Source of the DNA: an uncultured Prevotellaceae bacterium
GTDB lineage: Bacteria > Bacteroidota > Bacteroidia > Bacteroidales > Bacteroidaceae
Direction of reading: 5' to 3'
Assembly: GCA_902775075.1 (NCBI GenBank)
Contig: CACYKX010000099.1
Coordinates: 1 to 11,033, forward strand
DNA length: 11,033 bases
A program made the translations under genes and the position numbers. Shown here one piece after another: positions 1-10,600 of the stretch. The notes below the pieces were generated by a model. That model searched no databases. It was not told where the DNA came from and saw nothing but the letters and a program-made list of their open reading frames with translations. The number at the start of each line of letters is the position of its first letter. The stretch's first letter is position 1.

Positions 1-965
1 CAGTAATCCTAGTACGAGTAAACAATCGTGCCAACAGATAACACACGATAACCGTTATCACTCCTACTACAGGTGCCACCACATACTGTTGCACGTCAGA
101 CGAACAAATATTCTCATCGATGCTCCAAATTCTTTCCACCACATTTTGCAGCAACACACCTTGCAAGCCATAGATAGCCAACGTATATCGTCCTATGTCA
201 GCCAACCAACCTTTCCAATTGCAAGAAAGCACCCGGCAGATCAACATCATCAGCGTGATGCTCAGTATCGACCCCGCCAGTCCACCGATAAACTGCACTG
301 GCAACTGCAATGGATCGTGAAAGAGCACATCATAGGTGAGCACTGCCGGACCATGCCACGGCACAAGCAGGAAGATGATGAGCGAGACCGCTAATGCCCC
401 CCCCCAGGTGTGAATGCAGCCATCCGTCATGTCCCTTCATCACATAGCCCAACCAAAAGAAGATAATCATATAGTTGAACTGCAGGAAATATCCATGCGG
501 GAAGAGCAGCGCAAAGACAATGCTCCCAATAATCCTCAGCCACAACGTCCCCGGCAACCTTAGCACCAGCCACGCAAAGAAATAGCAGGCAAATAGCGTC
601 CGCAGGAACCACATGCCACCGATAGCCTCATCACGTATGAAGCCCGTCGGACAATTACCCGTCACCACCCAAGTAGCCAGCAAATTCAGCCCCACATACA
701 CCGCCGTCGGCACAAGCAACTGCAATGCCTTTTTCTTGACAAATGGACCAAACGGCATTGACAAAGCATGGTGGCTAAAATAACCGCACATCAGCATGAA
801 CAACGCCATGTGGAAAGTATAAAGCATCCCAAATACCTGCGCTTGATAACCTACCGACAGCATCGTGAAGGCATGCCCCATGCATACCAAGAATATAGCC
901 CACAGCTTAGTGAGGTCGAGATAAGCGATTCGCTTCTTCCCTGCCATATCATTACTATTTAACAT
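1..965 (-). CDS. Membrane acyltransferase, acyltransferase-3 family; frameshifted at a G9 tract and cut by the window start
   Basis: This is a multi-pass inner-membrane protein that probably transfers an acetyl or other acyl group to a sugar of the polysaccharide. Family hallmarks are visible: a first helix with YLDLTKLWAIF and MGH (His31), then FHMALFMLMCGYF (residues 51-63), then GGMWFLRTLF (117-125), with further hydrophobic helices. The uninterrupted frame ends at a stop at 330-332, after only 211 residues. The homology does not end there: after the G9 tract at 397-405 another frame continues openly to position 1 with more hydrophobic segments (ALAVSLIIFLLVPW, then GGLAGSILSITLMML). Removing one G joins the two into about 321 visible residues; the C-terminus lies outside the window. 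The chosen ATG at 965 overlaps the upstream GT2 gene by 11 nt; a second ATG at residue 7 (position 947) is equally plausible. The family assignment is firm; the acceptor sugar is unknown. Confidence 0.88.
397..405 (-). repeat. Homopolymeric G9 tract (C9 on the + strand) in the acyltransferase gene
   Basis: Nine consecutive C on the plus strand read as nine G in the coding strand, starting in codon 187. With nine G the frame runs into a stop at 330-332. With eight (or eleven) G it continues into the open frame that reaches the window start. It is the longest homopolymer I see in the window. The position and the consequence are read directly; a role as a slippage switch is inference. Confidence 0.9.
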
Positions 966-1824
966 CTCTCCAATGCATCAACCACCCTAATGGTTTCGTC
1001 CATCGCCACGACAACGGAACTGTCGGGATATTACAACTCACCTCACGAGCATGTTCCACCGTCAAGCACGCTTTGAATCGATAATAGTTGATCGCTGCTT
1101 TCATCTTTTGACTCCAAGGCATCTCTATGTCGAGCATCTCGGTGTAGGTCATCATTGAAGCAACGGGACTGTCCATCCGTATTCTCACGATGTTATCTGT
1201 CAGTCCTCCATCAAGATAGTCACGCAGATAGACAACCTTTGGGAAAACATGTAAACGATATTTCCGAGCAATGCGATTCCATACAAGGCTTTCCGGACAG
1301 AAGCGTTCTCCTTTCAACTCCGGAAATGGAAAGTCACGCAACACTTCTGTTCTGAACACCTCGCACATGTCCCCACAGACATGATATTTATATCTCAAGT
1401 CTATCTCAGAAGCGTCAACCCCTATAAGAGGATGTCCGATCACCTGTCCATCTCTATGTGCCATATATCCGCACACTCCGGCAAAGTCTCGCTTTCCCTT
1501 TATCGGCTGATATTCATCTAATATCTTAGCAATCGCGTCCTCCGGCAACTCATCATCACTGTCCAAGATCAGCGTCAGCTCGCCCTTTGCCTCCCTAATA
1601 CCCAAATTCACGGCCGTATGCTTGCCTCCATTCACCTTTTGGTAGAGCTTAACGTCAAAGCCTTCACCGGTGAATTTCTCTACAGCCCCACGTACATCAT
1701 CCTCAGAACCATCATCCACAATGATCCACTCAAACTCTTTGCTCGTCTGATGGTTCAGGCTTTCAAACAGACTGGGCAAGAATGAAGCCCTATTATAAAT
1801 AGGTGTAATGACAGAAACCTTCAT
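955..1824 (-). CDS. Glycosyltransferase family 2 (GT-A fold)
   Basis: Cytoplasmic or membrane-associated transferase of 289 residues that adds one sugar from a nucleotide-sugar donor to the growing lipid-linked repeat unit. The N-terminal GT-A domain is typical: VSVITPIYNR at residues 3-12, the nucleotide-binding acidic pair VDDGS (36-40), NGGKHTAVNLGI (65-76), and the DxD-type metal motif DSDDE (88-92). The C-terminal half has no transmembrane anchor that I can see. The start ATG overlaps the stop of the upstream EpsG gene as ATGA (1821-1824), and the stop overlaps the first codons of the acyltransferase gene, so translational coupling on both sides is likely. Donor, acceptor and linkage cannot be read from the sequence. 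Confidence 0.93.
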   Translation of the reverse strand: MKVSVITPIYNRASFLPSLFESLNHQTSKEFEWIIVDDGSEDDVRGAVEKFTGEGFDVKLYQKVNGGKHTAVNLGIREAKGELTLILDSDDELPEDAIAKILDEYQPIKGKRDFAGVCGYMAHRDGQVIGHPLIGVDASEIDLRYKYHVCGDMCEVFRTEVLRDFPFPELKGERFCPESLVWNRIARKYRLHVFPKVVYLRDYLDGGLTDNIVRIRMDSPVASMMTYTEMLDIEMPWSQKMKAAINYYRFKACLTVEHAREVSCNIPTVPLSWRWTKPLGWLMHWRDVK

Positions 1825-2999
1825 TTACTTGGCTTACCGAGTTTAAAGACAGTACGATAGAATTTGTCTCTATCATAGTTATGGTCATATTCATATTTAG
1901 CTTCTATTTCGTCACCTTTCCTAAAGCCATCGGTAAAGAAAGTTTTATAAGGGTAAAGCATCATACCCCACTGGTTCACGATTCTTAAGAACAAGAAGAA
2001 GCTAACGACAACCATCATATTAGCTAACTTTGTATTTCGCCACGTATAGGTACAAAGGTAGGTGATTGTTGAAATCACACCGATCATATAATACCAGCTC
2101 AAACGTCCACCATTTTCATTTTTGATAAAGAATAATAAGACAAGGCAAAATGTCAAAGCCATATTCAGTAAAACAATATTCACCCTTTTATTAGGTATCT
2201 CCTTATAGCGTGACAAGATAATGTACAAGAAGAACACCGCTTCCACCAAATAGGCTATTCGGAATCCCGTTTCATTTCCTGCTACATCTGCACGCTCACT
2301 GTCCACCTCCCCGTATGCCGAGAAAATTGCAGTTGGCCCTCCTGTCATTCCAAGTAAGAATGCAGCGATCATCACATAGATCACCTTTTGCTTATCAAAC
2401 TTCCTCACAGGCACCCAATACATTGGCAAGAGCACAAGAGCGGAATTATGAAATGACCATGCTATGAACCACACTAACAAGAAACGTTTTAGATCACGCT
2501 TGATGATATATCTCACAGATAACCAGGCGATCGTAGCCCCCATTACCTGTCGCAGATAGGTAAAGGAGAAGAAGAACCACAAACCTAAGAAAAGAATGAC
2601 TGCAAAAGGATAGTTAATGCAATAATCCCTAATGGATTTATACAATAGTACATATATAATGCACGTAGTGATAAAGATAAAGATATATCGATTATCAGTG
2701 ATTGCACCTAGCAACACATTATAAATCTGATATCCATATTCCTTGGGATATTGTTCAGCCACACGGGATAATCTGAAATTATAGATACCGTCTGACACCA
2801 TATCCGCTGTATCATCAAACAACTCGCCATAGATATATCGGTCATAGCCTCCAAGCATATCCGCACTACCTACTAACAAAGCCAAGAAAACGAACGTTGC
2901 TACAAGTGCTAATTTCTGCTTATCTGTCTGGTAGCCATGTCCAAACGAGGAGTAGTAGGTAACAATTGCAACTAAAAATATAATTAGATATAGAAACAT
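1821..2999 (-). CDS. EpsG-family polysaccharide polymerase (Wzy-like)
   Basis: A 392-residue polytopic membrane protein and the candidate polymerase that joins lipid-linked repeat units at the periplasmic face. Its N-terminal signal-anchor helix (FLYLIIFLVAIVTYYSS) is followed by a short conserved region with GGYDRYIYGELF (residues 50-61) and then many hydrophobic helices. The diagnostic central block of EpsG proteins is present: FTYLRQVMGATIAWLSVRYI (146-165), a short basic segment, then SFHNSALVLLP (182-192). The length fits the family. It starts 6 nt after the upstream GT2 stop; AAAGGAG lies only 1 nt before the ATG, too close for an ordinary Shine-Dalgarno. Its base composition is visibly more AT-rich than the acyltransferase and ATPase genes, as often seen for polymerases. 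Family known, specific linkage unknown. Confidence 0.88.
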   Translation of the reverse strand: MFLYLIIFLVAIVTYYSSFGHGYQTDKQKLALVATFVFLALLVGSADMLGGYDRYIYGELFDDTADMVSDGIYNFRLSRVAEQYPKEYGYQIYNVLLGAITDNRYIFIFITTCIIYVLLYKSIRDYCINYPFAVILFLGLWFFFSFTYLRQVMGATIAWLSVRYIIKRDLKRFLLVWFIAWSFHNSALVLLPMYWVPVRKFDKQKVIYVMIAAFLLGMTGGPTAIFSAYGEVDSERADVAGNETGFRIAYLVEAVFFLYIILSRYKEIPNKRVNIVLLNMALTFCLVLLFFIKNENGGRLSWYYMIGVISTITYLCTYTWRNTKLANMMVVVSFFLFLRIVNQWGMMLYPYKTFFTDGFRKGDEIEAKYEYDHNYDRDKFYRTVFKLGKPSK

Positions 3000-3005
3000 G
3001 CTCCT

Positions 3006-3959
3006 TTAAAAAAGATTAATAATTCTACTAACGAGTAACAGAAGTGTTTTATTGTTTGCAAACCGTCGAAAAAGATTTTTTCTTGCATCTCCACACTTGC
3101 CAAGTGGGTAAAGTCCCAAGTTGCCATAGTCCTTGATCGCTTTTTTCAAACGGTTATAACCATACCAACGCAGAATGATGTAGAAGTGATTGATAACACA
3201 CAGATTGTCTATCTCCATCAGCTGATGTCGGAGCTGACCATCTTCAATAGAATCTGCCATCCGCTTAATGCTACCCTGGATGAGCACCGAGTCCTGGTAG
3301 TTCTTGACATAGTGGCGCAGGCTGGTGCAGCGGGTAGTAGATGTACTGCTTGTGCAATCGTAAAGATATCCAAACAGATTAACGCCCTGTACATAGCGCG
3401 TCTTCACAAGCACCTGCAAACAGAAGAACATATCCTCCTGGTTCACCGTACCGTCGACAAAGCGCACATCACCGATAACCGACCGTCGGAAAAGTTTATT
3501 CCAAAGATAAAGGTTATAAGTCTTCATCTGCTCCAGACCCGTCAGAGCCTTGTCGGCATCATAAATGACGTTCTTCTCTTCTTTTCCGTCAGCCGCCAGC
3601 CGAATGTAGTTAAAGGCTATGATTTCAGCATCGGGATATTGATTTATCAATTCTATGGGCTGAACATCGGGGAGTACCTTGTCGTCAGCATCAACAAACC
3701 AAACATATTCGCCCCGGGCAAGTTCAAGCCCTCTGTTGCGTGCTGACGAGGCACCACGGTTCGGTTGACTGACGAGACGCACTTGCCGGTGCCCGGTAGC
3801 AATCCTTTGCACCACCTTGGGTCCATCATCCTTGCTGCCGTCGTCGACAACGATAATCTCATAGCTGCCGGGAGGCATACTGAGTGAGAATATACTCGTC
3901 AAGCATCGCTCAATAGTCGAGGCGCAATTATATAGAGGTATGATAAAACTAATCTGCAT
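3006..3959 (-). CDS. Glycosyltransferase family 2 (GT-A fold)
   Basis: A 317-residue family 2 glycosyltransferase. The GT-A domain shows ISFIIPLYNC (residues 3-12), the acidic pair VVDDGSKDD (37-45), QPNRGASSARNRGLELARG (65-83) and the DxD motif VDADD (89-93). Further on, LWNKLFRRS (152-160) and NQEDMFF (173-179) supply the usual acceptor-side elements, including the acidic ED pair that normally holds the catalytic base. It is the first gene after the AAA-ATPase gene and has 213 nt of non-coding DNA upstream, so it starts the distal part of the operon and may need either read-through or a promoter in that gap. It is followed after 6 nt by the EpsG-like polymerase gene. Family certain, sugar specificity unknown. 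Confidence 0.93.
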   Translation of the reverse strand: MQISFIIPLYNCASTIERCLTSIFSLSMPPGSYEIIVVDDGSKDDGPKVVQRIATGHRQVRLVSQPNRGASSARNRGLELARGEYVWFVDADDKVLPDVQPIELINQYPDAEIIAFNYIRLAADGKEEKNVIYDADKALTGLEQMKTYNLYLWNKLFRRSVIGDVRFVDGTVNQEDMFFCLQVLVKTRYVQGVNLFGYLYDCTSSTSTTRCTSLRHYVKNYQDSVLIQGSIKRMADSIEDGQLRHQLMEIDNLCVINHFYIILRWYGYNRLKKAIKDYGNLGLYPLGKCGDARKNLFRRFANNKTLLLLVSRIINLF

Positions 3960-4172: not shown

Positions 4173-5738
4173 TTACTCTACAGCCTCTATCCTCCAATCG
4201 TCAATGCTGCGCTGATCATCCGAGAAGTTAATAGCCACCTTAAACTTACGGCGCTTGTCATCGGCAAAAGCCTTGGGATAGTTCTTGGCGTTGATCTGTT
4301 CCATGGCCGTTTCCGCGTCCTTCTTGTATTTCAGCTCGAAGACATAGATGCTCTGCTTGGTCTTCATCACCATATCGATGCGGCCGTCAGAAGTAGGAAC
4401 CTCAGGATAGACATCGGCACCGACCAACTTCAGTATGGTAAAGAACACAGCCTGATAGTGCCGCTCATTATTATTGACCAATGTATAAGGAAATTTGTCG
4501 TAAAACCTCTTTAACGCAGCAATGAACTTCTCCATATTCTCCTCACGCAGGACGTTGTCGACGTAAGCAATATATACGGCATCGCGGAAACCGGGGTCTT
4601 TCGGCGTGTAATACTGTACAAGATTATTGGCAAAGCCGCGCGTGACTTCTCTGTTAGGGAACGACAAGCGATAGAGTCTGCTCAAGGAATCATAGCTCTT
4701 TATGGTCAGATAGCCAGCCTGATACAGCACTGGTACCGGATCGCCCACGCGCTCCGTCGGCGTGTTGAAACGCGACTCGGTAGCTTGTATGTTGGTCAGC
4801 TGAAGCATATCCATATTCTCGCGCTGAAGGAGCTCAACGAGGAATGTTGGTGTTCCGGTGGTGTACCAGTAATCACTGAATTTCTTCTTATACAACACAT
4901 TCAACAGGCTGAAAGGATTAAAGATATCGGGTGAGTCTGCCGAGAAATGATAGCCGTCATATTCAGCCTCTAATTCAACCACGGCCTCATCGTATGTCAT
5001 ATTATTATTGTCAGCCAACGCCTGAATATCATCTTTCAGACATGTCAGCACCTCCTTCTTGGTGAATCCGCAGACCGCAGCATACTCATCGTCCATGCTG
5101 AAGTTGTTCAGGTTGTTCAACTCGCTAAAAATGCTCAGTTGGGAGAACTTCGTGATACCCGTCAGAAAGACGAAACGCAGCAGTTCGCTCTGGGCCTTCA
5201 AAGGAGAAAAAAAGTCGCGCATACGATTCCTTATCTCAGCCTGCAATGTCTCGTCGGAGTTGCTGTCCAACATCGGGGCATCATACTCATCAACGAGCAC
5301 CACCACCTGCTGGTGGTTCTTATCGCAGGCTGCTTTTATGATTCGCGTCAGTCGGACGCCAAACGTGTCTTCCAAAGCAGACCGAAGATGATATTTCTCC
5401 TCATAATCGGACAATATATTGTTGATAGTAGACTTCAGCGCATCCAAGCTGTAATACTTGCCGCTGCTAAGGTCAAGTCTGATCACCGGGTACACGGTCC
5501 AGTCCTTTTCCAACTTTTCTATAGCTAACCCCTTAAACAGTTCTTTCTTTCCCTCGAAGTAGGCCTGCAGAGTAGTCACCAGCAAAGATTTGCCGAAACG
5601 GCGAGGGCGGCTCAGAAAGTTGTTCTTTGTGCCGTGCGCCATCCTGTAGACGAGCACCGTCTTGTCCATATAGAAGAGATTCTTCTCCCTTATCTCCTGG
5701 AAGGTCTGTATGCCAATTGGAAAGTTCTTATGTTGCAT
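4173..5738 (-). CDS. AAA-ATPase-like protein with C-terminal PD-(D/E)XK nuclease-like domain (DUF1703)
   Basis: A 521-residue cytoplasmic protein of the AAA-ATPase-like/DUF1703 family, which is abundant and multi-copy in Bacteroidales and whose biological role is not established. The N-terminal P-loop reads SRPRRFGKS (residues 43-51), a divergent Walker A with Lys50 and Ser51. Walker B is VVVLVDEYDAP (145-155). FLTGITKFSQLSIFSELNNL (191-210) is a family signature. The C-terminal nuclease-like core is intact: GRIDMV (Asp455), VFELKYKK (Glu468 and Lys470) and EQINAKNY (480-487). It has no evident part in sugar chemistry and sits as an insertion within the polysaccharide operon. It has its own promoter, 150 nt of upstream and 213 nt of downstream non-coding DNA, and a composition closer to core genes than to the AT-rich genes nearby. 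Family certain; function unknown. Confidence 0.93.
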   Translation of the reverse strand: MQHKNFPIGIQTFQEIREKNLFYMDKTVLVYRMAHGTKNNFLSRPRRFGKSLLVTTLQAYFEGKKELFKGLAIEKLEKDWTVYPVIRLDLSSGKYYSLDALKSTINNILSDYEEKYHLRSALEDTFGVRLTRIIKAACDKNHQQVVVLVDEYDAPMLDSNSDETLQAEIRNRMRDFFSPLKAQSELLRFVFLTGITKFSQLSIFSELNNLNNFSMDDEYAAVCGFTKKEVLTCLKDDIQALADNNNMTYDEAVVELEAEYDGYHFSADSPDIFNPFSLLNVLYKKKFSDYWYTTGTPTFLVELLQRENMDMLQLTNIQATESRFNTPTERVGDPVPVLYQAGYLTIKSYDSLSRLYRLSFPNREVTRGFANNLVQYYTPKDPGFRDAVYIAYVDNVLREENMEKFIAALKRFYDKFPYTLVNNNERHYQAVFFTILKLVGADVYPEVPTSDGRIDMVMKTKQSIYVFELKYKKDAETAMEQINAKNYPKAFADDKRRKFKVAINFSDDQRSIDDWRIEAVE

Positions 5739-5888: not shown

Positions 5889-6819
5889 CTATCTTCCGCC
5901 TGCCGGAATCTTTATGAAACTCTCATCAAGCATTAAAGACGGCTTTTGCTCATGTGCGAACCATCTGTCCGGAGCTATAACAACTTTTTCCTCGTTGGTG
6001 CTCAGATACTGTCCCCACCAACTGAACGTGCTGTTGCAGATGATGAAATGGCGGCACGACGACATCAATCTAATCTCTTCAACTGGTGAACATTCCTGAG
6101 GAACGAACGTGACATCACATTCATCAGCAAAGAAGGACCGTGCCTTCGTAATTTCATCAGAGAACACGAAGAAGTGGGCATCAGGGAACTTTGCGCGCAT
6201 CACCGACAAGGCATTATCATAATAGCCTTTGTCACAAATAAAATAAGCATTGCGGAATCTGTTGCTCAAGTAGTCGCCCAAACGTACATTGACGCATATC
6301 GAGTTACATCCGTTTATCTCAGTAAGGACTTTGGCAGCCACATCGCTCAGCGGCTCCACAGGCTGGAGCTCTTCCTGGAGTATGGTTCTTATCGGCTCAA
6401 AACATTCAGGAGCCTCACATATCCCGAGAAAGAACACATTCTTGTATTTGTTCAGGTATTCCCGTCTTAGAAGACTATTAGTATTGAAGTAGATTCCATA
6501 CTTCTCAAGTCTGTCCCTACTCTCTTGTATGTCACCACCCCTGCACAGTATCCGTTGCAGTTTGTCATAGCCATAAGCAACGATTTGGCTCATTGCCCCG
6601 TCCGCGACAAAAAGATTTTTATCAGTTACCTCGTAGGGCAAGACCTTGAAATGTCGGAGAGAGTCTTCCCATCCATCTTCAGGTTTACCCCCCCCTATAA
6701 ACAGGCTGGAAATTTAACTTTATTGTTTCCTTGTCGCCTCGCATCCACCTCAGCATGCGTATCATCGCATACTCTAACAGCTGATTGCCGAGCCGGCCGC
6801 CAATATAACCTTCTATCAT
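5889..6819 (-). CDS. Alpha-1,2-fucosyltransferase, GT11 family; frameshifted at a G8 tract near the N-terminus
   Basis: Transfers fucose from GDP-fucose, in this family usually in an alpha-1,2 linkage. The true N-terminus starts at ATG 6819, only 2 nt after the upstream stop, and carries the GT11 signature YIGGRLGNQLLEYAMIRML (residues 5-23). That frame hits the G8 tract (6688-6695) and stops at 6685-6687, after 44 residues. The remainder lies open in another frame from the tract to 5889. Without one G the two join as VYRGGKPEDGWEDSLRHFKV, giving a 309-residue protein, normal for GT11. Downstream motifs are VNVRLGDY (176-183; canonical proteins have His where Asn177 is), VFSDE (218-222), CNSTFSWWG (261-269) and KVVIAPDRWF (278-287). 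An in-frame TTG at 6641 would give a 250-residue product lacking the GNQ motif, which I do not believe functional. As sequenced, the gene is OFF. Confidence 0.9.
6688..6695 (-). repeat. Homopolymeric G8 tract (C8 on the + strand) in the GT11 gene
   Basis: Eight consecutive C on the plus strand read as eight G over codons 42-44 of the fucosyltransferase. Eight G places a TAA at 6685-6687 directly after the tract. Seven (or ten) G keeps the frame open into the rest of the enzyme. It is the second-longest homopolymer I see in the window and, like the first, sits exactly at a reading-frame break. Confidence 0.9.
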
Positions 6820-6821
6820 GT

Positions 6822-7880
6822 TTACAACAAATTAATTTCTTTGTATCTTGCTCCTCCTAACAATGCCGACCTGTAGGGGAAGCCGCTGTGATACATCAGC
6901 TTATCGCGGACAAGACATACAGTGTCGGCAAAGCTAATCATATACATATCGAGGAACGACTTAAGGTAAGTGGCATGGTTGGCATCGAACGTAAAACCTA
7001 TATGCACGACTTTCCCCGGCATAATGTAAACGTAGGGCAGGGAGCGCTCTTGCAATTCCGAAAGGAACGTAGAGCTGTCGGCAGTCACAAGAATCGTCTT
7101 TCCGGGATATTGCTCATGAAGACTGTTAACAGTCTCTATGCATCTTTCCATATATGGCCCACGTTGCTCTGTCGGCAGAGTGTCGCCACCCTCCTTGAAG
7201 TCGCCAAGCAACTGGCGGAACCTGAAAGTGCAGGATATATAGCTTCGCCTGCCTCCAAGCTTATCCAAATGATAATCTATCTGTTGCTGCAGCTCTTCCG
7301 TTGGCTTGAAAAGCTCATGAAAAAGAGGTCCGTATTCCTTGTCGCGGCAAATCATATTGGAGTAAACATGTATTTGTTCATATGGTTTGCGTATGTAACT
7401 CTTCAGTATAGAGCTTTGTACCCAATGCTGGTATCGGTTGCGCGTACTGGCGTGGTAGGTGAGCAGCGTGCAAGGATAGACCTTTCTCGTATCCCAGCAG
7501 ATCTCATCACCCGATATTCTCCAATCGTATTCGTTGGGCTGGAGATAGTCTTCCAAATGTAACGGTTCAAAGACAATCCGAAATGGCAGTTCTTTCCGCT
7601 TGCATTCTTTGTAGATAGCCACAATGCCACGTAGACGGTCACTAAGGCCTCCAGAGAAAGTTGTCTCGGGCAGGACCATGTAGACAACTGTCTTATGATC
7701 ATTGTCTTTTTTCTCGCCCTGACGGTCACCATTCTTTTGCTTTCCGCTATAGAGCGGCAGCAAAAGAATCCGCCGGAAACGGATGTTGCTCATCAGTATG
7801 GGCTGAAAATAGAATATGCTATTAAGCATCCGGTAGAGCAACTTGCCCAATCCCCTCTGCCGAAACTTATTGTCTTCCAT
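6822..7880 (-). CDS. O-fucosyltransferase / NodZ-like glycosyltransferase (tentative)
   Basis: A 352-residue protein, usually annotated as hypothetical in related loci. Visible motifs resemble the GT-B O-fucosyltransferase/NodZ superfamily: an N-terminal FSGGLSDRLRGIVAIYK (residues 75-91), a basic loop FRFRQLLGDF (219-228) at the place of the HxRxGD donor-binding motif, a strand ending in ILVTADSSTFLSEL (263-276), and a C-terminal SGFPYRSALLGGARY (332-346) like the serine/glycine-rich end of the family. The first 60 residues are basic, with a Lys/Asp-rich linker at 48-63 and no signal peptide I can support. It lies between a GT4 gene (21-nt gap) and the GT11 fucosyltransferase (2-nt gap), so a second fucosyl or related deoxyhexosyl transfer is a reasonable guess. 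The superfamily is inferred from motifs; donor and acceptor are unknown. Confidence 0.68.
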   Translation of the reverse strand: MEDNKFRQRGLGKLLYRMLNSIFYFQPILMSNIRFRRILLLPLYSGKQKNGDRQGEKKDNDHKTVVYMVLPETTFSGGLSDRLRGIVAIYKECKRKELPFRIVFEPLHLEDYLQPNEYDWRISGDEICWDTRKVYPCTLLTYHASTRNRYQHWVQSSILKSYIRKPYEQIHVYSNMICRDKEYGPLFHELFKPTEELQQQIDYHLDKLGGRRSYISCTFRFRQLLGDFKEGGDTLPTEQRGPYMERCIETVNSLHEQYPGKTILVTADSSTFLSELQERSLPYVYIMPGKVVHIGFTFDANHATYLKSFLDMYMISFADTVCLVRDKLMYHSGFPYRSALLGGARYKEINLL

Positions 7881-7901: not shown

Positions 7902-9020
7902 TCATGGTTGTTTGAAAATGCCCTTTTTCAGGTTGTTAAATAGAGTGACCCACTTCTCCATAATGACCGGCACGTCAAAACGACGAACATTCACACGCGC
8001 TTTAGCACCCATCTGCTTGCGGATGTCCGGATGTTCGATCAGATAATTAATTTTTTCTGCCATATCATCCCCATCCAAATACTTTGCGAGGAAGCCATCT
8101 TCCTCATCCCTAATTATATCCGAAGGACCAAAGGGACAATCATAAGCCACACAAGGTACACCCAATGACATACTTTCGATCAAAGTAAGTCCCCAACCTT
8201 CAAATATCGACGGCAATATCATTATAGAAGAATTCAAATAGACTGATTCTATATCATTAGTATATGGATAGATCTTGACATTCTTAAGCCCTTGCGCCTG
8301 AATTGTTCTCCTGATTCTTGCCTCTTCCGGACCACATCCATAAATATTTAAATGCCAATCAGGATGACTTACTTCAACCTGTTTCCAAGAAGGAAGGAAA
8401 TCCGCGATTCCTTTTTCGTAAGATAAACGAGATACAATCAAAACATTCTTCTCTATACATTGCGATTGAAGGTCAGACCGCATATAGTTGGCGTTGTTAA
8501 CGTATAAGGAGTGGCAACCAGTCAGTTCTTCTACATGTTTTGCCTCTCTGGATGTAAGCGACACGATACGACATATACGATACTTCGTAAGCGAATACCA
8601 CTTACCGAGCCTGCTGAGCTGTCCTATTCGAGTTCCACAATACAAGCCCTGAAATTCTATGATCCGTTTTATCCAAATAGTAAGATAAATCACAGCCAGG
8701 GGTTCCAACGTTGGCATGGTACTGACTATGATGTCTGGCCGTACCTTGCAATATACTCTAAGAAAACAAAAACGAACATAGATATACTGCAACAGCCGAC
8801 CAATAATCGGGATAGCAAGTAGTCTGTCCCGTTTCTCCTTATATATATAGTGAAAATGTATCTTGTCGGAATACATCGATTCCTTAGGTATAATCAATTC
8901 CTCGGCAGTATTCAAGTTATGCACCTCAAATCCATGCTCTACCAGATAGTTTTCCTTAACCGATGTGATTCGGTTGATACCACCTACATCAAATTTATCT
9001 TGCAAATAGAGAATTCTCAT
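7902..9020 (-). CDS. Glycosyltransferase family 4 (GT-B fold)
   Basis: A 372-residue retaining-type GT-B glycosyltransferase that adds one sugar to the lipid-linked chain on the cytoplasmic side. The N-terminal domain opens with MRILYLQDKFDVGGINR (residues 1-17), whose GG loop contacts donor and acceptor in this family. The C-terminal GT4 domain shows VSRLSYEKGI (196-205), LNIYGCGPEEARI (224-236) and the EX7E motif EGWGLTLIE (Glu274 and Glu282), followed by GVPCVAYDCPFGPSDII (287-303), which closes the donor site. The length is normal and both domains are complete. It sits 21 nt after the upstream GT2 gene and 21 nt before the O-fucosyltransferase-like gene, in line with one transcript. Sugar specificity cannot be read. 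Confidence 0.93.
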   Translation of the reverse strand: MRILYLQDKFDVGGINRITSVKENYLVEHGFEVHNLNTAEELIIPKESMYSDKIHFHYIYKEKRDRLLAIPIIGRLLQYIYVRFCFLRVYCKVRPDIIVSTMPTLEPLAVIYLTIWIKRIIEFQGLYCGTRIGQLSRLGKWYSLTKYRICRIVSLTSREAKHVEELTGCHSLYVNNANYMRSDLQSQCIEKNVLIVSRLSYEKGIADFLPSWKQVEVSHPDWHLNIYGCGPEEARIRRTIQAQGLKNVKIYPYTNDIESVYLNSSIMILPSIFEGWGLTLIESMSLGVPCVAYDCPFGPSDIIRDEEDGFLAKYLDGDDMAEKINYLIEHPDIRKQMGAKARVNVRRFDVPVIMEKWVTLFNNLKKGIFKQP

Positions 9021-9041: not shown

Positions 9042-9959
9042 TTAGAGTGATTTCCAAATGATAGACAACTTGTCTCTGAAAGGAAAAGCGTCACCTCTGA
9101 CAACTCTAAAAAAACACTTTACCTTGTTGAGAATAGAAGCTGGCGAGATCTGATGGATGATGAGCAGTTTTCCATAGACAGGAAGGAACCCGACTGTATT
9201 TCGATAAAGATAGTTGGTATATGCATCTGAGCCAGATATTCTGTTCCGTATAAAGCTGCAGAGCCATTTATAATACTCCATCGCAGCTCCAATTTTCCCC
9301 GGCAACAACTTTTGGTTGCTCGTAATGTTGATTCCACTGCTATAGCGAAACTTCACCATACATTTATCAGAAACAACAACGCCATTCTCAGCCATCATAA
9401 TGGCTGACGCATCATCAGAAGCCCACGCAAATGGGAAACTTACAAACCCGCCCTTCCTCAACAATGCGTCTCTCTTAAAGATATACTGTGGTATACCGCT
9501 TTTCATCCCATGCATCATGGAATAGACATACTCCGCAAACGACAGATGTTCTTTATAATAGCCATCCATGCCTAATATCTCTCCATCATCAGTAACTTGC
9601 ACGATGCGAGAGCGAAGCAAGTCTGCTTCAGGATATTTATCTATCATTTTCGAGAAGTAGTCGAGAAAGTCCGGCTCATAGAGATCGTCGTCTGTAGCCA
9701 AAATCACGTAGTCTCCATGAGCATATTGCAAACAGTGGTTCCACTGGGCCACCAAATCCTTGCCACCAATATTCTCTTTATTACGGTAATAGGAAATACG
9801 AGCGTCATGAAACGAACTGACTATTTGTTTTAAATTCTCAGGCGAGTGATCATCGACAATCACCAACTCAAAATCTGTACACGACTGTGCAAGGATGCTA
9901 GACACAGATTCACTTAGATATTTTCCCTTCCACGCTGGAAGAATGAACGAAAAACGCAT
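9042..9959 (-). CDS. Glycosyltransferase family 2 (GT-A fold)
   Basis: A 305-residue family 2 glycosyltransferase. It has FSFILPAWKGKYL (residues 3-15) in place of the usual IPxYN, the acidic pair IVDDHS (34-39), NIGGKDLVAQWNHCL (63-77) and the DxD motif ATDDDLYEPDF (88-98). A second acidic pair in FAWASDDASAIMMAENG (177-193) is where the catalytic base normally sits. No membrane anchor is evident. It begins 26 nt after the hexapeptide acyltransferase gene and is followed by the GT4 gene after 21 nt. It is divergent from the two other GT2 proteins in the window, so it is not a recent duplicate of them. Donor and acceptor are unknown. Confidence 0.93.
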   Translation of the reverse strand: MRFSFILPAWKGKYLSESVSSILAQSCTDFELVIVDDHSPENLKQIVSSFHDARISYYRNKENIGGKDLVAQWNHCLQYAHGDYVILATDDDLYEPDFLDYFSKMIDKYPEADLLRSRIVQVTDDGEILGMDGYYKEHLSFAEYVYSMMHGMKSGIPQYIFKRDALLRKGGFVSFPFAWASDDASAIMMAENGVVVSDKCMVKFRYSSGINITSNQKLLPGKIGAAMEYYKWLCSFIRNRISGSDAYTNYLYRNTVGFLPVYGKLLIIHQISPASILNKVKCFFRVVRGDAFPFRDKLSIIWKSL

Positions 9960-9985: not shown

Positions 9986-10600
9986 CTACTTTAAACTTTC
10001 AATGACCGTTGCAGGTACGCCTACAGCTAAAGAATGTGCAGGAATGCTCTTTGTCACCACAGCATTGGCACCAATGATACTTCCCTCACCAATGCTTACA
10101 CCGGAAAGAATGCAGACGTGCTCACCTATCCAAACATTATCTTCTATAACAACAGCCCCTTTTGATACGAGCTCCCGATCTGCAACAGGAATATCGCTAT
10201 CAGCTAATGTTCCATGCTGATGATCGGTGATCAGCACTCCACTTCCTATCATCACGTTGTTGCCGATAACTATCTTGTTAATACACCCAATATGGCAGTA
10301 GCTATTAATAAAGACATTGTCGCCAACAGAAAGGCACGGATGATATTGCTTACCTGCATATCTGTTTATACATTCCATTTTTAGTCCGGGCTGGGATATA
10401 AAGTTTCTGCCTATACAAATCGGTTTCCCCTCCCCTACAACAATCGTATAAGGTTCGGAAAAGATAGGACGACTATCATTTTGAAAGCAGATCATTTCAT
10501 CGACAGCTTTTCTCTTTTTTCGCTGACCATAGGCCATACCTATAATATAAATCCAATAGCAAATACTGCGAAAGACATTAGCCACAAAATTCATTTTCAT
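9986..10600 (-). CDS. Hexapeptide-repeat O-acetyltransferase (left-handed beta-helix)
   Basis: A 204-residue soluble acyltransferase that probably acetylates a sugar of the repeat unit with acetyl-CoA. From about residue 90 it shows the imperfect [LIV]-G-x4 hexapeptide periodicity of a left-handed beta-helix: SVGDNVFINSYCHIG (91-105), KIVIGNNVMIGSGVLITD (109-126), then VIEDNVWIGEHVCILSG (151-167) and VSIGEGSIIGANAVVTKSIP (168-187), ending in the usual AVGVPA (192-197). The external loop holds DHQH (126-129), with the catalytic-type histidine. The N-terminal 60 residues are less typical and include a hydrophobic stretch (residues 8-23) that may be a membrane-associating helix. The start ATG overlaps the upstream stop as ATGA (10597-10600), which indicates coupling. 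Family firm; acetylation of glycan rather than another substrate is inferred from context. Confidence 0.9.
   Translation of the reverse strand: MKMNFVANVFRSICYWIYIIGMAYGQRKKRKAVDEMICFQNDSRPIFSEPYTIVVGEGKPICIGRNFISQPGLKMECINRYAGKQYHPCLSVGDNVFINSYCHIGCINKIVIGNNVMIGSGVLITDHQHGTLADSDIPVADRELVSKGAVVIEDNVWIGEHVCILSGVSIGEGSIIGANAVVTKSIPAHSLAVGVPATVIESLK

Follow-up and report, generated by a model that had tools for sequence, protein, structure and literature searches.

Frame switching by slippage at homopolymer runs is a mechanism already known from Helicobacter pylori and Akkermansia; what is new in the locus described here is the Prevotella lineage and the pairing of two candidate switches. The futC gene of H. 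pylori reportedly belongs to the GT11 class and is said to carry a poly-C run. In the same species, futA and futB are described as having a 5' C run whose length sets the reading frame, and futC as encoding the alpha-1,2 enzyme (PMC2583950). The sequence-only reading of the window (the whole stretch of 11,033 nucleotides analysed here, from an uncultured Prevotellaceae bacterium) had drawn a parallel with futC, and this parallel holds in kind, that is, in the combination of a fucosyltransferase gene and a frame-setting homopolymer run as described in the available text of PMC2583950. Like futA, futB and futC, a fucosyltransferase-like gene of the window has a homopolymer run at a frame break; unlike them, it belongs to another phylum and another type of locus and has an atypical GT11 motif I, and its switching and its product are presumed. 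In Akkermansia muciniphila, the G9 run of the EPS gene Amuc_1413 slipped in culture, with G8, G9 and G10 forms reported among public genomes (PMC13055324), and the acyltransferase gene amuc_2098 is described as having mononucleotide repeats (PMC13343947). These cases share with the window a gut-commensal setting, surface-polysaccharide genes, G runs of 8-10 and natural length forms, whereas the phylum is a different one and the change was seen there in culture and in reads, and here only across records.

Within the Bacteroidales, one surplus C in a run of four C disrupts an acetyltransferase gene of Bacteroides fragilis 638R, and the authors raise slipped-strand variation as an explanation (PMC3090145). 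The likeness lies in the Bacteroidales polysaccharide locus, the acetyltransferase and the homopolymer frameshift; the difference lies in the very short run and the single strain comparison, with no recurrence given in the available text of that paper (PMC3090145). Phase variation in Bacteroides is described as DNA inversion in the accessible part of a 2025 review, which also asks for rate and reversibility before a change is called phase variation (PMC11868660). The invertible capsule switching of Bacteroides and the switching proposed here concern the same order and, in both cases, surface polysaccharides, but recombinase-driven DNA inversion in the former contrasts with a change in run length in the latter. 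Homopolymer phase variation in Prevotella was found in none of the titles and abstract openings of the matches listed for open-licence papers, which argues only weakly that the phenomenon is unpublished.

In the window, two genes contain a long homopolymer run inside the coding frame, each at a frame break, namely a GT11 gene and an Acyl_transf_3 gene. We consider it probable that slipped-strand phase variation acts on both genes, that both were recorded in the OFF state, and that they belong to an exopolysaccharide or capsule locus. According to this mechanism, slipped-strand mispairing in replication would change the length of the run, and the gene would be intact in part of the cells and cut short in the rest. 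Two decorating enzymes, one fucosyltransferase-like (GT11) and one acetyltransferase-like (Acyl_transf_3), would each carry a poly-G contingency tract, and the present sequence would have caught both genes OFF. Two independent switches would yield up to four surface types per population, and, since the backbone genes (GT2, GT4 and EpsG) are whole, switching would alter the decorations of the glycan and would not abolish it.

Read on the minus strand, the locus comprises, in order, an incomplete ORF, a hexapeptide O-acetyltransferase gene (9986..10600; PF00132, and 135.8 bits with the WbbJ model NF007240, below its cut-off of 243), a GT2 glycosyltransferase gene (9042..9959; PF00535), a GT4 glycosyltransferase gene (7902..9020; PF00534), the gene of a 352-aa protein (6822..7880) for which no Pfam family was listed at E up to 1, the GT11 gene, which the preceding gene adjoins upstream, an AAA-ATPase_like/PDDEXK_9 gene (4173-5738), a second GT2 gene (3006..3959; PF00535), the gene of an EpsG-family polymerase (1821..2999; PF14897, 140 bits), a third GT2 gene (955..1824; PF00535) and the acyltransferase gene, the start of which overlaps the latter. 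The 352-aa protein contains a GLSDRLRG stretch, which we take to recall fucosyltransferase-like enzymes. Among named species, the locus is most closely related to that of Prevotella lacticifex. In one region of this species (L273), identity to the window is 79% for EpsG, 67% for the GT2 encoded at 955..1824, 66% for the 352-aa protein and 84% for the N-terminal part of the acyltransferase, and genome G990 possesses relatives of the same four genes; the identity of the 352-aa protein across P. lacticifex and G990 is 66-69%. Given these similarities, a relative of Prevotella is the most likely origin of the window. No GT11 gene was found at the syntenic place in P. lacticifex, where a GT2 gene follows the relative of the 352-aa gene, and the one GT11 match in this species is located elsewhere in its genome, with 38% identity. 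Because of this absence, GT11 is most likely a variable part of the polysaccharide locus. The AAA-ATPase_like/PDDEXK_9 gene and the GT11 gene separate genes whose relatives lie nearer to each other in P. lacticifex, and both may therefore be a later insertion. Human blood-group mimicry via GT11 was set aside, as neither host nor linkage supports it; the nearest named relative of the locus presumably originates from the rumen.

The GT11 gene starts with an ATG at position 6819 of the minus strand, 2 nt past the preceding gene. Its N-terminal part (6688..6819, minus strand) consists of 44 codons with the GRLGNQ signature and runs into a G8 run (6688..6695, minus strand) at the frame break, with a TAA at 6685-6687 directly after it. 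The catalytic part (5889..6692, minus strand, stop included) lies in another frame, where 265 codons are open. All of these details agree with the sequence-only reading, and its estimate of about 309 residues for the intact enzyme is borne out by whole natural relatives of 309-310 aa (P0001, P0002 and P0003). The match of 5889-6641 to PF01531 (97.1 bits against a cut-off of 23.9) assigns the gene to the GT11 family; the whole relative P0001 reaches 102.1 bits. Over the C-terminal part, P0001, P0002 and P0003 are 92%, 80% and 68% identical to the window, and all three are whole. P0001 and P0002 hardly differ over their first half but diverge over the second, a pattern like that left by allelic recombination. 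A further record, P0004, comprises a piece of 178 aa with exactly the sequence of the C-terminal part of the window gene; it begins downstream of the run, a form that matches the gene-caller output expected from a broken copy. Apart from the broken gene of the window itself, the close relatives found are these three whole clusters and the one piece, all of them protein records. The longest contig listed is 47,770 bases for P0003 and also for the whole acyltransferase P0141, which suggests, without proving it, one strain with both genes whole.

The alignment with intact GT11 orthologues, which had been proposed as a check, places P0001-P0003 whole across the run, with Arg-Gly-Gly-Lys/Arg at its position. 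The codons of the tract fall in columns that are gapped in 23-26 of the 53 aligned GT11 proteins, and in a model of P0001 (mean pLDDT 90.8) they are located at and after the end of helix 38-43; the run therefore lies in a tolerant loop. The statement that the restored enzyme would have all motifs was too strong. Motif I, with the consensus H-x-R-R-G-D, takes the form VNVRLGDY in the window, as it does in the three closest relatives. The first Arg (53/53) and the Asp (52/53) are kept among the aligned proteins, including the window group, whereas the His found in 43/53 and the second Arg found in 46/53 are replaced there by Asn and Leu. With this atypical motif I, the activity and the alpha-1,2 linkage of the fucosyltransferase-like product are putative, and H-antigen synthesis and host mimicry by it are hypothetical. 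GT11 had no match in NCBIfam at E up to 0.001, and a sequence search of solved structures at E 0.01 yielded no match for P0001 or for the acyltransferase P0123.

The Acyl_transf_3 gene is broken at a G9 run (397..405, minus strand), which is longer than the GT11 run and had not been mentioned in the sequence-only reading. Its N-terminal part (330..965, minus strand; 211 aa as broken) matches PF01757 with 56.9 bits, and the C-terminal part (2..403, minus strand), which lies in another frame and runs off the window, with 31.9 bits for 2-430, barely above the cut-off of 31 bits. Both parts matching PF01757, the gene belongs to the Acyl_transf_3 family in general; a fucose acetylase of the NolL type was set aside, the N-terminal part scoring 47.8 bits against an equivalog cut-off of 425 (NF042426).

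These two are the only G/C runs of at least 6 in the window, and both are at frame breaks. Dinucleotide shuffles led to an expectation of 0.59 G7 matches, compared with 5 overlapping matches found, and 5 were reached in one of 200 shuffles. With the window as training sequence, Markov models of orders 1, 2 and 3 predicted 0.11, 0.03 and 0.18 runs of at least 8, and two or more such runs were obtained in 0, 0 and 3 of 300 simulations; when the models were trained on a run-trimmed copy, the expectations were 0.11, 0.02 and 0.04, and the simulations with two or more runs numbered 3, 0 and 0 of 300.

With the 211-aa N-terminal part of the broken acyltransferase as a query, 121 protein matches were obtained, and the top 53 of the 120 listed, each 63-100% identical to a whole reference, were classified. 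Fifty of the 53 cover the run; the frame is whole in 42 of these and broken exactly at the run in 8. The clusters that fall short of the run are P0168 and P0171, with a frame change elsewhere, and P0172, which is cut. Seven broken forms (P0121, P0122, P0124, P0128, P0131, P0138 and P0166) continue in one wrong frame and one (P0159) in the other, and each broken cluster has 1 to 56 member sequences (56 in P0138, 15 each in P0121 and P0122). Among the 42 whole clusters, three (P0125, P0127 and P0170) stop short as if a contig ended there, the glycine count at the run is lower by one in P0132 and higher by one in P0161, and five (P0163, P0167, P0169, P0170 and P0173) lack the Gly-Gly pair, which indicates that not all members of the family have the tract. 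Frame breaks in the 53 clusters thus number 8 at the run and 2 elsewhere (P0168 and P0171), a comparison that is a partial stand-in for a tract-free control gene, since a long run also attracts errors. Of the 67 listed beyond the top 53, three were inspected by eye (P0176, P0191 and P0227); P0176, 65% identical and outside all counts, looks broken at the run.

Five of the eight broken forms have whole near-copies, 95.6-98.0% identical over the N-terminal part (P0138/P0158, P0166/P0146, P0121/P0123, P0122/P0133 and P0124/P0135), and these pairs fall in different lineages. For the other three, the nearest whole form is 84.7-93.9% identical, and for the window gene, it is 93.9% identical. In a tree of the N-terminal parts (50 rows including the window, with the run and P0170 excluded), the broken label changes 8 times, a value that is constant (8-8) across 200 bootstrap trees, and well-supported branches force at least 5 of the changes. 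The label is not more clustered than when shuffled (mean of 8.3 changes; 285 of 500 shuffles as low). Judging from these proteins, the broken state of the acyltransferase is apparently labile and not the result of one old loss, a pattern seen between records and not inside one culture. Among the acyltransferase sequences, the run thus varies naturally in length, with both whole and truncated products, and for the locus there is good support for an ON/OFF switch that depends on a tract, mainly through the acyltransferase tract, at which 8 of 50 clusters are broken; for the GT11 tract, on which the sequence-only reading had placed the switch, the evidence consists of the three whole relatives, the broken window copy and the one piece.

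At the DNA level, the acyltransferase P0123 has a match in 1 of 399 family genomes at E 1e-45, in 0 of 393 order-level genomes at 1e-42, and in 5 of 378 genus genomes at 1e-45, the close ones being G990 (77%) and P. lacticifex G004 (75%). Viral contigs yielded no match to the acyltransferase or to the tract flanks. In P. lacticifex (L269 and L273), the gene is whole and has a G8 run at codons aligned with the run of the window; in G990, it is whole and the run is interrupted. GGG accounts for 24 of 174 glycine codons in nine ORFs of the window and, in the P. lacticifex region, for 19 of 130 across six genes. Since it is a minor glycine codon, codon use does not explain the repeated GGG at the acyltransferase run.

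For GT11, a scan of genome contigs with the C-terminal part alone revealed no relative, and a scan with a five-sequence alignment revealed 109, of which the best 80 have at most 40% identity, so no close orthologue is present among them. P0001 matched 13 of 399 family genomes at E 1e-30, with 40% identity at best, and among the best 80 of 555 matches in viral contigs, only distant GT11 sequences were found. A G/C run of at least 7 lies in or near the matched gene in three of the best 80 genome-contig loci, and a run of at least 8 in L051 only. In this locus (27% GC), from a Bacilli MAG, a G11 run (9775-9785) breaks the GT11 gene near its N-terminus: a GRLGNQLFQYA start is followed by the run and then by the catalytic part in another frame (PF01531, 154.8 bits). 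It is an independent parallel to the GT11 gene of the window. In L010 (Fibrobacterales), an Acyl_transf_3 gene is split at a G15 run (4437-4451), the N-terminal part scoring 79.1 bits and the C-terminal part 22.7, with a cut-off of 31.

G9 runs are present in 16/16 related genomes tested. For a survey of 13 Prevotella-family genomes, which omits G008, G002 and G129, the listed G9 matches were merged by hand into 81 runs; 76 were analysed, five near contig starts having been dropped and three within 450 bases of a contig end (L190, L234 and L254) kept. Of the 76 runs, 14 coincide with a frame break, 29 fall within an open frame and 33 belong to neither class; the corresponding numbers for 4027 random positions in the same loci are 106, 3239 and 682. 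Among coding places, 14 of 43 runs and 106 of 3345 random positions are thus at frame breaks (Fisher p 7.5e-11), an excess to which homopolymer sequencing errors could add. The frame-break rule was revised once, after its first version had labelled the acyltransferase run of the window as open; that version gave 14 breaks, 28 open and 34 other among the 76 runs and 59, 1523 and 442 among 2024 control positions. A switch cannot be deduced from a long G run by itself, as most of the runs are in open frames or outside, ordinary genes among them: the 20 scanned of the 29 open-frame runs include two in Acyl_transf_3 genes and one in a Hexapep gene, the rest being mostly in ordinary genes (GH43, ApbE, POR) or in genes without a match (4).

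In the 14 genes broken at such runs, matches of at least one piece comprise Acyl_transf_3 (2), Branch (2), DUF1919 (1), GT4 (1) and MFS (1), and seven genes have none. One of the 14 (L263) possibly represents two tandem GT4 genes and not one broken gene, and in another (L196), the run is late in an MFS gene. In P. lacticifex G004, five of 11 distinct fetched runs are at frame breaks (L240, L241, L246, L186 and L239), in a Branch (GT14-type), a DUF1919 and an Acyl_transf_3 gene and in two genes without a Pfam match. The two broken Acyl_transf_3 genes are those of L246 (P. lacticifex) and of L188, the single G9 match in the genome of Prevotella sp. MA2016. On the Acyl_transf_3 profile, the tract is at about position 65 in L188, about 97-119 in L246 and about 212-218 in the window; these different positions suggest that tracts in such genes arose repeatedly and independently.

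Another question is whether the two breaks are real. If they were sequencing or assembly errors in homopolymers, both genes would in reality be whole. They do occur at the two longest G/C runs of the window, where indel errors are commonest, and the excess of frame breaks at G runs in related genomes could partly consist of errors as well; yet an artefact accounts poorly for eight broken acyltransferase clusters with 1 to 56 members, from different lineages and in both wrong frames, and the whole forms P0161 and P0132, differing by one glycine codon, represent real length variation. We regard errors as quite unlikely to be the source of the breaks. Constitutive production of some full-length enzyme, through programmed ribosomal frameshifting or through slippage of transcription at the run, seems very improbable. 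G runs can slip, the GT11 run abuts a stop codon, and a 1999 paper is said to have described translational frameshifting in H. pylori futC. Against this, whole single-frame relatives exist for both genes, and the broken acyltransferases use two different frames, so that no direction of shift is conserved.

Ordinary pseudogenes, arising by one-way loss at a slippage-prone run with no useful switching, require closer consideration. A review holds, in its accessible part, that the term phase variation should be withheld from homopolymer indels for which reversal has not been demonstrated (PMC11868660), and the reversibility of the run-length change is presumed here. An acyltransferase relative (L003) looks, by eye, decayed around a G8 run. 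In addition, P. lacticifex and G990 both have MutS domains; H. pylori and C. jejuni are not known to have them, and the slippage rate in this lineage may be low because of the domains found. Set against these points, each gene of the window has one lesion and is otherwise open and conserved, broken acyltransferases stand beside whole near-copies on several branches, and the run is kept in the whole P. lacticifex orthologue although GGG is a minor glycine codon. Simple loss is thus unlikely in our estimation. Slipped-strand switching of both genes is supported by the restriction of runs of at least 6 in the window to the two breaks, the recurrent broken acyltransferases, the G8 run in the whole P. 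lacticifex orthologue, the excess of frame breaks at G9+ runs in 13 genomes, the gapped columns at the GT11 tract, the G11 break of L051 and the slippage of a G9 run in Akkermansia. Switching within one strain, its reversibility and rate, the chemistry of the sugars and a benefit in phage or host recognition are what we infer beyond these observations.

More tentatively, and with less confidence than we attach to the two genes themselves, it is conceivable that rumen and gut Prevotella possess a combinatorial poly-G contingency system acting on decorating enzymes (GT11, Acyl_transf_3, GT14-type Branch and DUF1919), parallel to the DNA inversions of Bacteroides. In the present locus, switches of fucosylation and acylation, possibly on the same residue, would create four surface types from one clone under phage pressure. 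If Prevotella uses G-run slippage, short reads spanning the runs would reveal the surface state in metagenomes from rumen and gut at little cost, and slippage in decorating enzymes would bear on phage susceptibility. Some of the "pseudogenes" in Prevotella glycan loci may then be OFF states.
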